Positions 17,577 to 20,105 of a stretch of 36,649 nt of DNA are shown here, one piece after another (position 1 is the first letter of the stretch; each line of letters starts with the position of its first letter). The stretch is from NCBI GenBank assembly GCA_025353745.1, contig JANXOE010000128.1:1-36649 (forward strand). The letters are read 5' to 3'. Position numbers and translations under genes: made by a program. The notes under the pieces are model-generated. The model made no database searches and was not told the DNA's origin. It saw only the letters and a program-made list of their open reading frames with translations. This DNA comes from Hymenobacter sp. (GTDB lineage Bacteria; Bacteroidota; Bacteroidia; Cytophagales; Hymenobacteraceae).

Positions 17577-19736
17577 ATGAATATCCGCCAGCTTTTTAAA
17601 TTTCTGCTGCTCTGTTGGTTGCCGGCCCTACCGGTGGCCGCGCAGATTCTCACGCCTACCCACCTCAGCACGGCCCTGGGCCGGCCCATCACCAAAGTAG
17701 GCCAGGAAGTGGACTTGATCGTAAATGCCCGCATCGACGACAAGTGGCACCTCTACGCCACCGATTTTAGCGAAGACGTGGGCCCGGTGGTTTTTGCCCT
17801 GAAGTTTGTGCCCAGCGCGGCCTACGCGCTGGTGGGCAAGCCGCAGTCCGTGAAGTCGCACCACCAGATGGACGAGGTGTTCAAGGGCGAAGTGGCGTTT
17901 TGGGAAAAAACCGGCCAGATCCGCCAGCGCATCAAAGTGCTCCGGCCCGGCACGTTCACCATCAAAGCCGATGCCGACTACCAAAGCTGCACCGATGTGG
18001 ACGGCCGCTGCGTGCCCGGCAACGAGAGCCTGACCTTCGGGCCCCTGCAAGTGAGCGACTCGGCCGCGCCGGCCACCGGGGCCGTGGGGCCCTCCGCCAC
18101 GCCCCCGGCGGCCAAGCCAGAGGGCCCCGCGCCCACCGCCTTGGTCGCTCCCGCCGCACCGGCGGTCTCTCCGGCCACGGTTGGCACCGTAGATGCCCCC
18201 GCAGCCGCGACGGCCCCCGTCCAAGCCGCCGGGCCAGCGGTGGCCGCAGCGGCCATGCCCGTGGCCGACGCGGGCGGCTTGTGGAGCTTTGGGCTGCTGG
18301 CGTTCCTGTCGGGGCTGGCGGCGCTGCTCACGCCCTGCGTGTTTCCCATGGTGCCCATGACGGTTTCGTTCTTCACCGGGGGCCAGGACAGCCGCGGCCG
18401 CGGCATCCTCAAAGCCGTGGTGTACGGCCTGAGCATCATCGTGATTTACACCCTGATCGGGGTGGTGGTGGCCCGCCTGCTGGGCGAAGACGGCCCCAAC
18501 TTCATGGCCACGCACTGGCTGCCCAACCTGCTCTTTTTTGTGGTGTTCGTGGTGTTCGGGCTCTCGTTTTTGGGTCTGTTTGAAATCACGCTGCCCAGCG
18601 GCCTGGTGAACAAGGCCGATGCGCAGGCCGACAAAGGCGGCTGGCTGGGCGTGTTCTTTATGGCCTTTACGCTGGTGCTGGTGTCGTTTTCGTGCACGGG
18701 GCCCATCGTGGCCACGGTGCTGGGCCTGGCTGCCCGCGGCCAGACGCTGGCCCCCGTGGTGGGCATGCTGGGCTTTTCGCTGGCGTTTGCGCTGCCGTTC
18801 ACGCTGTTCGCCATCTTCCCGTCGTGGCTGAAAAGCCTGCCCCGCTCGGGCGGCTGGCTGAACACGGTGAAGGTGGTGCTGGGCTTCGTGGAGCTGATGC
18901 TGGCCCTCAAGTTCCTGAGCATGGTGGACTTGGCCTACCATTGGGGCATCCTCACCCGCGACGTGTACCTGGTGTTGTGGATTGTGCTCTCGGCTCTGTT
19001 GGGGCTGTACCTGCTGGGCAAGTTCCGCCTTTCGCACGACTCGCCCCTCGACCACCTCAGCGTGGGCCGGCTATTGCTGGCGGTGCTGGCCTTGAGCTTC
19101 ATGACGTACCTGGTGCCGGGCCTGTTCGGGGCCCCGCTGCCGCTGCTGGCCGGCTACCTGCCGCCCCAAAGCCGCCACGATTTTTCGTTGGCCGCCGGGG
19201 GCCCTGCCCCGGTGCAGCCCGCCAACGCGTTGGGCGAAACCCCGCGCTTCAGCGATTTTCTGGAGCTGCCCCACGGCTTGCAAGGCTACTTCGACCTTCA
19301 GCAAGCCGTTCGCGCCGCCAAGCGGCAGCACAAACCCATTTTTATCGACTTCACCGGCCACGCCTGCGTGAACTGCCGCAAGATGGAAGCCACCGTTTGG
19401 AGCGACCCGCAGGTGCTCAGCCAGCTACAAAACGACTACGTGGTGGTGGCCCTCTACGTGGACGATAAAACCGAGCTGCCCCGCAACGAGTGGTACACGT
19501 CGGCGCGCGACCACCAGCAGAAAACCAGCCTCGGCAAGCAAAATGCTGACCTGCAGGTGACCCGCTACGGTTTTAATGCCCAGCCTTACTACGTGTTGCT
19601 CAACCCCGACGATCCCACGGGTAACCCGCTCGTCAAACCCATCGCCTACGAACCCAACGTGGCGCAATTTGCGCAGTTTCTGCAAGCGGGGCGGCGCAGC
19701 TACCAGGCCCGGCACGCGGCCGTGGCAGCCCGGTAG
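17577..19736 (+). CDS. Thiol:disulfide interchange protein, DsbD type
   Basis: 719 residues from ATG 17577, which opens a signal peptide (LLLCWLPALPVAAQ). Order: N-terminal periplasmic DsbD-alpha-like domain (about 25-160) with Cys138 and Cys145; an Ala/Pro-rich linker (about 160-230); a transmembrane domain of about eight helices with the redox cysteines Cys254 (LLTPCVFPMVP) and Cys373 (SFSCTGPI); and a C-terminal thioredoxin-like domain with CVNC at 597-600. The family passes electrons from cytoplasmic thioredoxin across the inner membrane to keep periplasmic disulfide isomerases and cytochrome c maturation reduced. All six redox cysteines expected of full DsbD are present. A thioredoxin gene lies 1.2 kb downstream. 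Confidence 0.92.
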   Translation: MNIRQLFKFLLLCWLPALPVAAQILTPTHLSTALGRPITKVGQEVDLIVNARIDDKWHLYATDFSEDVGPVVFALKFVPSAAYALVGKPQSVKSHHQMDEVFKGEVAFWEKTGQIRQRIKVLRPGTFTIKADADYQSCTDVDGRCVPGNESLTFGPLQVSDSAAPATGAVGPSATPPAAKPEGPAPTALVAPAAPAVSPATVGTVDAPAAATAPVQAAGPAVAAAAMPVADAGGLWSFGLLAFLSGLAALLTPCVFPMVPMTVSFFTGGQDSRGRGILKAVVYGLSIIVIYTLIGVVVARLLGEDGPNFMATHWLPNLLFFVVFVVFGLSFLGLFEITLPSGLVNKADAQADKGGWLGVFFMAFTLVLVSFSCTGPIVATVLGLAARGQTLAPVVGMLGFSLAFALPFTLFAIFPSWLKSLPRSGGWLNTVKVVLGFVELMLALKFLSMVDLAYHWGILTRDVYLVLWIVLSALLGLYLLGKFRLSHDSPLDHLSVGRLLLAVLALSFMTYLVPGLFGAPLPLLAGYLPPQSRHDFSLAAGGPAPVQPANALGETPRFSDFLELPHGLQGYFDLQQAVRAAKRQHKPIFIDFTGHACVNCRKMEATVWSDPQVLSQLQNDYVVVALYVDDKTELPRNEWYTSARDHQQKTSLGKQNADLQVTRYGFNAQPYYVLLNPDDPTGNPLVKPIAYEPNVAQFAQFLQAGRRSYQARHAAVAAR

Positions 19737-19758
19737 CTGCGCAAAATAAAAAAATGCC

Positions 19759-19805
19759 AAAAGCTAAAGAGGCGACTTTGTTGAAAAGTCGCCTCTTTAG
19801 CTTTT
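19759..19805. terminator. Perfect 21-bp inverted repeat, bidirectional terminator
   Basis: The arms 19759-19779 and 19785-19805 are exact reverse complements around a GTTGA loop. The structure lies between the convergent dsbD-like gene and the tRNA-like gene, so it can serve both. Confidence 0.85.
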
Positions 19806-19808
19806 AGG

Positions 19809-19923
19809 CTGTAGCGGAAGGACTTGAACCTTCACGAAGTAGTTAGCCAGCCGGGGGGCCGATTTATCCCGAACCTTCACCCTCGAGAGAGGAGGGTGTG
19901 TCTGCCAGTTCCACCACACTACA
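19809..19923 (-). tRNA. Class II tRNA-like gene, leucine-type D arm, apparent anticodon CUC
   Basis: Read on the minus strand, the cloverleaf is: acceptor TGTAGTG (19923-19917) with CGCTACA (19816-19810), one T-G pair; TG; a D arm GTGGAACTGGCAGACAC of bacterial tRNA-Leu type; A26; anticodon stem CCCTC/GAGGG; a 7-nt loop CTCTCTC, giving anticodon CTC with T37; a variable region of about 46 nt; T arm GAAGG-TTCAAGT-CCTTC; and G73 followed by CC. The D arm says leucine, the anticodon would read Glu codon GAG, and G73 is typical of serine rather than leucine. The variable region can fold (GAAG/CTTC, GTT/AAC, CGGG/CCCG). GTGAAGGTTC occurs twice, 45 bp apart, at the start of the variable region and at the T arm. 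A -7 element and a terminator flank it. It could be functional, regulatory or decayed. Confidence 0.65.
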
Positions 19924-19958
19924 AGTTATCAGCGGGAGCCTTTTGCTCCGGCCGGGGG

Positions 19959-19966
19959 CAAAGATA
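19959..19966 (-). promoter_or_regulatory. -7 element upstream of the tRNA-like gene
   Basis: TATCTTTG on the minus strand matches TAnnTTTG exactly, 35 bp before the predicted tRNA 5' end. A small hairpin (GGAGC / GCTCC, 19935-19949) lies in the intervening leader. No strong -33 TTG is seen. Confidence 0.45.
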
Positions 19967-19995
19967 AAAACTTTTTCGCGCAGTTTCAGCCATGG

Positions 19996-20105
19996 AAATG
20001 TAAGAAAAACTATACAACAAACGATTGTTAGTTTATAATCTATTGATTATAAATAATATACTGTTCGCATTTTTTTAAATTTTATCTGTTTTCAACTGTA
20101 ATGGT
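19996..20105. other. AT-rich island with two dyads in the tRNA upstream region
   Basis: The 19924-20270 gap holds no gene. Its middle is strongly AT-rich in an otherwise GC-rich window. Two dyads stand out: AACAA-acga-TTGTT (20016-20029) and a perfect 9-bp TTTATAATC-tatt-GATTATAAA (20032-20053). It lies just upstream of the tRNA-like promoter, so it may act as an UP-like element or operator, or it may be foreign DNA. The 20106-20210 part shows nothing recognisable. Confidence 0.45.

Follow-up and report, generated by a model that had tools for sequence, protein, structure and literature searches.

What is encoded on the minus strand at positions 19809..19923 of the 36,649-nucleotide stretch of DNA analysed here (the window), where a tRNA-like gene seems to carry the marks of several tRNAs at once? 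A sequence-only reading of this locus had described an intact cloverleaf with a CUC anticodon, a pyrimidine at position 37, G73 as discriminator and a 46-nt variable region, and had left three options for the product: a mistranslating tRNA, a tRNA with a role outside translation or a decaying gene. The structural description is borne out by the sequence and by a covariance-model match of 129.5 bits. The predicted RNA (referred to below as TLS, for tRNA-like RNA) is 115 nt long, from U1 (19923) to G73 (19809), and a DNA search found a single copy in the genome. The 5′ strand of the acceptor stem (UGUAGUG, with U1, G2 and U3; 19917..19923) pairs with positions 19810-19816; the outer pairs are invariant among relatives and the inner ones covary. 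The 3′ strand (CGCUACA) and G73 occupy 19809..19816, with no encoded CCA. Sequence and relatives together define a D arm (19898..19914) with a 3-bp stem and the leucine-like loop GAACUGGCAGA. The anticodon arm (19880..19896), delimited from the sequence, from covariation and from copies not selected by their loop, presents the loop CUCUCUC with the anticodon at 19889-19887. Alignments place a covarying outer stem, UGAAG/CUUCG, in the variable region (19834..19879), where it encloses GGGAUAAA ... GGCUAAC, and set the T arm at 19817..19833. The acceptor stem has 7 bp and the anticodon and T stems 5 bp each; position 37 is U.

Two flanking signals that the sequence-only reading had taken as hints of expression were recovered on the same strand. 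A promoter-like box of the TAnnTTTG type (TATCTTTG, 19959..19966) lies 43 nt 5′ of the RNA, and a terminator-like hairpin (20 or more perfect pairs, then a T-rich tail; 19759..19805) lies directly 3′ of it. Of 26 TLS copies examined, 19 have such a box no more than 75 nt upstream, where shuffled sequences predict about one. The gene is presumably transcribed, and would yield a stable tRNA-like RNA.

Standard tools do not recognise this RNA. ARAGORN called no tRNA anywhere in the window, and Rfam 15 at the gathering score gave no match in the window or in six other TLS loci. A permissive Rfam scan of positions 19700-20100 returned 19 sub-threshold matches, mostly to the terminator hairpin and none of tRNA type, and the locus is missing from the 34 RF00005 matches of its genome. 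TLS does not pass as an ordinary tRNA by these tools: RF00005 and ARAGORN pass it over even though it forms a four-arm cloverleaf with a conserved D-loop/T-loop core. When folded alone, the window TLS shows no gain in stability over its shuffled versions (z -0.16; 75 of 200 shuffles fold equally well) and its minimum-energy structure differs from the cloverleaf. Since the lone sequence is neither unusually stable nor a cloverleaf at minimum energy, the case for the cloverleaf rests on covariation among relatives.

Homologues were sought by DNA search in 59 genomes, that of the window included. Near-full-length matches (E < 1e-15) were found in 25 of the 36 other genomes of the genus and in one genome of another family (G052), and the same search gave a match in G056 whose E value fell slightly short of this. 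Aligned with one another, 25 distinct copies show pairing in 99.8% of the cells. Two-sided changes affect 8 of the 25 pairs and 61 cells, against a mean of 14.8 cells for shuffled controls (none of 500 as high) and a maximum of 8 for structures slid along the alignment. These changes involve four of the five helices, the T stem having one-sided changes alone; another set, of 16 more diverse copies, shows compensatory changes in 19 of 33 predicted pairs, one T-stem pair among them. The compensatory changes support the TLS cloverleaf. The sequence-only reading had proposed looking in relatives for homologues and for compensatory stem changes, and both were found, in many genomes. The feature in the window is confirmed to be more than chance, and the existence of a TLS family with a defined structure, maintained by selection, is well supported. 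A repeat noted in the earlier reading, GTGAAGGTTC, does occur twice, 45 bp apart, as described; the alternative fold proposed from it did not stand as a family trait. The repeat changes in relatives along with the covarying variable stem, and it is already disrupted in the closest relative found (G012), hence the alternative fold is not conserved.

Covariance-model matches fell, among those listed, into two score groups: TLS at about 80 bits or more and at least 108 nt, and ordinary tRNAs, shorter than 90 nt, at about 55-64 bits. This listing gave at least one true copy a low score (G703, 56.6 bits there and 87.5 in another scan). As read from the genome table, 285 of the 390 genomes examined from the order carry the long form of TLS (E no higher than about 1e-20). 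A further 11 genomes have scores in the range of a compact form described below, 2 are unclear and 92 have neither; the 92 include incomplete genomes, and G049 among them holds a partial copy at a contig end. Outside the order, the matches listed include families f23, f24, f27 and f67. A pattern scan of named species gave at least 120 stretches, of which 80 were listed, every title being recognised as Bacteroidota; they include Dyadobacter, Spirosoma, Runella, Emticicia, Cyclobacterium, Flammeovirga, Hymenobacter and Saprospiraceae. Copies often stand in tandem; the arrays noted hold 4 to 7, with five copies at L101, four at L157, five at L236 and seven at L155 (counting one copy with masked bases), as well as an array at L283. 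A search of open-licence PubMed Central returned no title describing such an RNA. Whatever its mechanism, a tRNA-like family that most genomes sampled from an order possess, and that Rfam 15 fails to match in the loci scanned, is of value for annotation, which at present misses the long form and labels the compact form tRNA-Asp.

Nucleotide counts were made on 75 distinct TLS copies not selected by their loop, 74 of which have seven-base loops. U1-A72, U3-A70 and G73 are found in all 75, and G2-C71 in 74, the exception being a decayed copy. The pattern scan added two acceptor exceptions beyond this set, an A1 opposite A72 and an A3-U70 pair. All 74 loops have U35, C36 and C38. Position 34 varies, with 48 loops having G, 14 having C (as in the window), 10 having A and 2 having U. 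Decoding tRNAs have U33 and a purine at position 37. The window copy has U33 but U37; in the family, position 33 is U in 60 of the 74 loops and A, G or C in 14, and position 37 holds U 69 times, C three times and G twice. That TLS decodes or mistranslates GAG (GAC/GAU in the relatives) thus appears scarcely credible. The U33 and CUC of the window copy would fit such a tRNA, as would the name tRNA-Asp(atc) that ARAGORN gives to the compact form, but the replacement of U33, the lack of A37 in any loop and the freedom of position 34 speak against it, and the genome of the window already has tRNA-Glu(ttc) and tRNA-Asp(gtc). With position 37 a pyrimidine in 72 of 74 loops, the mistranslating tRNA of the earlier reading is unlikely, and its option of a non-translational tRNA gains the support of the family data.

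The internal loop of the variable region bears an AAA motif on one side in 154 of 156 long copies and UAAC on the other in 131 of 156 (half of these copies coming from the pattern scan), and the size of the inner domain varies from a few bases to that of a long fold. In 47 of the 156 long copies it is larger and includes the conserved GGGUUGACCAC or a close variant, for example at L096, L098, L101, L104, L087 and L097. In six Hymenobacter genomes (L139-L144, one copy each) there is a compact, 76-nt class I form, from which the variable domain is absent; it keeps the TLS acceptor end and D-loop core and has the loop CUAUCUC.

A decaying gene had been the third option. The copy at L147:1444-1555 (G030) illustrates decay, with a broken acceptor pair, a six-base loop and an asnC-type gene still adjacent; the stems of the window copy, in contrast, all pair, and decay is not supported for it. 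A weaker version of this idea, that the window copy is a relic on its way out of a family functional elsewhere, draws on its C34 and on the lack of an AsnC orthologue in the genome and of an asnC gene alongside. We regard it as highly improbable, given that the stems are whole, that 129.5 bits is within the range listed for the genus, that promoter box and terminator are both present, and that the G012 homologue is 96% identical with its stems intact.

The leucine-type D arm reported in the sequence-only reading is real; the conflict of identity signals seen there is not, as the signals form a coherent set once relatives are compared. This set comprises U35, C36 and C38 of the Asp/Glu type with G73, a U1-A72 end of the type used by GatCAB, and a body with a tRNA-Leu-like D arm. 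TLS resembles tRNA-Leu in its class II layout and D-arm sequence, and no ordinary tRNA in the genome of the window scored higher with model R1 than the two tRNA-Leu genes scanned (47.1 and 45.8 bits). It departs from tRNA-Leu, which has A73, in having G73, U1-A72 instead of G1-C72, a different anticodon (CUC) and a far longer variable region. Class II layout and odd anticodons also recall allo-tRNAs and selC-like tRNA-Cys, GUC being one common anticodon of 8/4 allo-tRNAs according to PMC7609411. Assignment to these groups was rejected: TLS has a 7-bp acceptor and a 5-bp T stem, not an 8/4 or 9/3 arrangement.

What amino acid would such an RNA carry? As set out in PMC9976931, aspartate identity consists of G73, G34, U35, C36 and C38 with G1-C72 and G2-C71; U1-A72 is what allows GatCAB to amidate Asp-tRNA-Asn, and G1-C72 and U20a act as barriers. 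The window and the unselected copies keep G73, U35, C36, C38 and G2-C71, apart from the decayed copy at 2-71 and in the loop; G34 is kept in 48 of 74 loops, and G1-C72 is replaced by U1-A72 throughout. On the GatCAB side, U1-A72 is universal in the unselected copies and U20a is missing from the eight commonest D-loop types, which end in GGCAGA or GGCAGC with no U after GG. A simple reading of most of an aspartate set joined to U1-A72 without U20a is an RNA that AspRS could load and GatCAB could amidate, and that translation could not use. We therefore favour, as the best-supported function and with about an even chance of being right, a non-decoding RNA that would carry aspartate for conversion to asparagine by GatCAB. 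AspRS, or in loops that lack G34 perhaps another synthetase such as GluRS, would use G73 and the U35-C36-C38 loop to load aspartate, GatCAB would recognise the U1-A72 end and amidate the bound aspartate, and the anticodon loop, helped in the long form by the large variable domain, would exclude the RNA from translation. Release of asparagine would then supply the amino acid in bacteria without an E. coli-type AsnB. Against this role, 26 of 74 loops lack G34, that of the window included, and the G1-C72 of tRNA-Asp is absent from TLS.

The proposed chemistry, the use of GatCAB and the U1-A72 pair are shared with the tRNA-dependent route in which AspRS and GatCAB make asparagine on tRNA-Asn, known from Deinococcus, Thermus and Bdellovibrio (PMC4206432 and PMC9976931). 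The difference is that the known route uses tRNA-Asn and a relaxed AspRS (as PMC4206432 reports for Bdellovibrio), whereas the TLS carrier would be dedicated, with U35-C36 of the Asp/Glu type and no part in decoding. The same paper counts 18 genera, Bacteroidetes included, with AsnRS, GlnRS and GatCAB, no asparagine synthetase and U1-A72 in all tRNA-Asn. Similar gene sets are explained there by a relaxed AspRS acting on U1-A72 tRNA-Asn, which counts against the carrier role; TLS would meet the same need for asparagine in a different way.

Gene content was compared in a panel of 64 hand-chosen genomes, with AsnRS in all 64, GatB in 55 and GlnRS in 28. GatB is present in the genome of the window and in 33 of 33 panel genomes with long TLS, and none of the nine GatB-less genomes has TLS. 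Genomes with GlnRS do not need GatCAB for Gln-tRNA. Among the 28 such genomes, GatB is found in 15 of 15 with TLS and in 4 of 13 without (Fisher p 1e-4, a statistic that, like all the panel associations, ignores phylogeny). E. coli-type AsnB shows the opposite pattern: it occurs in 18 of the 390 genomes of the order, spread over five groups (genera g23 and g25 of family f1, and families f8, f12 and f16), and all 18 are without TLS. Within family f23, one genome (G416) has a short AsnB and neither GatB nor TLS, and two others (G548, G619) have GatB, TLS and a different AsnB relative. The longer AsnB relatives of TLS genomes are probably polysaccharide-type enzymes. AsnA was considered as a replacement for TLS and rejected, there being no exclusion: 28 of the 37 AsnA genomes among the 390 carry the long form. 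The need for TLS is therefore not confined to genomes lacking synthetases. In genus g23, both AsnA and E. coli-type AsnB are missing from the majority of genomes without TLS, so another asparagine route exists. Both observations weigh against the carrier role.

Two of the four genomes that combine GlnRS and GatB in the absence of TLS are peculiar in that a single reading frame of about 1,100 codons joins GatB to a complete bacterial AspRS (L159:5453-8770 in G304, L160:4254-7559 in G322). Both have a GatA-like gene just upstream of the fusion and a stand-alone AspRS, and neither has an AsnC orthologue at E 1e-45. A certain AspRS histidine, which we take to be a mark of the relaxed bacterial enzyme, is present in both fused AspRS and absent from 16 listed TLS genomes and from AsnB-bearing genomes without TLS; a literature check gave no confirmation of this marker, which carries little weight as evidence. 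The only tRNA-Asn obtained from the genome of the window (L118:1501-1577), from a tRNA list that is incomplete in missing tRNA-Phe and tRNA-Ile, has G1-C72 and not the U1-A72 to which GatCAB responds, and the tRNA-Gln of that genome has U1-A72, which counts in favour of the carrier role; this tRNA-Asn was also the sole one that ARAGORN found in 324 sequences. The same genome encodes an AsnRS-like protein of about 345 aa with no anticodon-binding domain (L161:3465-4499, contig C12). This protein might be an asparagine synthetase of the archaeal kind, which would count against the carrier role, but models of archaeal asparagine synthetase A match it weakly (82 bits, with a cut-off of 368).

Among the proteins encoded around 21 TLS loci, one family is common to 12 and every other to at most 4. 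Its members score 151-173 bits with the AsnC model, 60-81 with LrpA and 43-58 with Lrp; they are not formally AsnC, because the AsnC cut-off is 227 bits. Aligned regulators are 59-83% identical to the first sequence. Of the 87 loci fetched, which sample some genomes twice, 64 have the regulator gene within 1.5 kb of TLS, and in all 64 it is upstream and divergent (61 by script, 3 from the listed minus strand). In the named species it is divergent and upstream at 49 of 80 loci; 8 others have under 500 bp of upstream sequence, and the remaining 23 have no such gene. The E. coli asnC gene is divergent from asnA, and the TLS/regulator layout would mirror that arrangement; the regulator would set the level of TLS. 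The linkage has exceptions, which count against the carrier role: an AsnC orthologue (E 1e-45) persists in many TLS-free genomes and is missing from three TLS-bearing panel genomes, those of the window (G000), G012 and G041. As the genome has no orthologue, the window TLS, which no asnC gene adjoins, is an orphan of the TLS/AsnC pair. Relocation of asnC to asnB or asnA in other genomes was discarded, no AsnC match being found in 20 asnB or asnA loci; this too counts against the carrier role.

A divergent regulator gene also recalls pairs of a regulator and a small RNA, of which GcvA-GcvB is an example. TLS could accordingly be a regulatory RNA in an AsnC regulon, acting as effector or decoy for AspRS or another tRNA-binding protein, or by base-pairing through its UCUC loop, and not a substrate of GatCAB. 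The free position 34 beside a fixed U35-C38, the fast-evolving variable domain and the varying copy number would suit that role. Regulation alone predicts neither the invariant U1-A72 and G73, nor the retention of GatB with TLS, nor the exclusion of AsnB, and the compact form, its variable domain gone, keeps the acceptor end; we consider a purely regulatory role rather unlikely. Donation of an aminoacyl group to some other non-ribosomal reaction (in cell wall, lipid or peptide modification) would account for the retention of the tertiary-core loops and acceptor end once decoding signals are gone. Staphylococci use a non-decoding tRNA-Gly in cell-wall synthesis, and TLS would be like it in being a tRNA withdrawn from translation; the two differ in the type of amino acid, in structure and in partners. 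No transferase or ligase is a constant neighbour, however, the families other than the regulator reaching at most 4 of the 21 loci, and such a donor seems improbable.

Returning to the aspartate carrier, its full form would be a dedicated RNA cofactor, found across much of Bacteroidota, that takes no part in decoding, accepts aspartate, stands in for tRNA-Asn as the GatCAB substrate and releases asparagine, under a neighbouring regulator that responds to asparagine; this we propose tentatively, as falling a little short of an even chance. If true, it would explain why GatCAB is retained in Bacteroidota having both GlnRS and AsnRS, would show how species that lack a classic asparagine synthetase could obtain asparagine with no decoding tRNA being mischarged, and would offer a clear case of a tRNA reserved as a biosynthetic cofactor. 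The asparagine supply of these bacteria becomes a directly testable question. As to the genes beyond the regulator, AspRS was rejected as a constant neighbour of TLS: it follows the AsnC-type gene once (L092), treated as chance, and was found in none of L002-L088 or L204-L283. An aspartokinase gene directly follows that of the regulator at one locus (L102).
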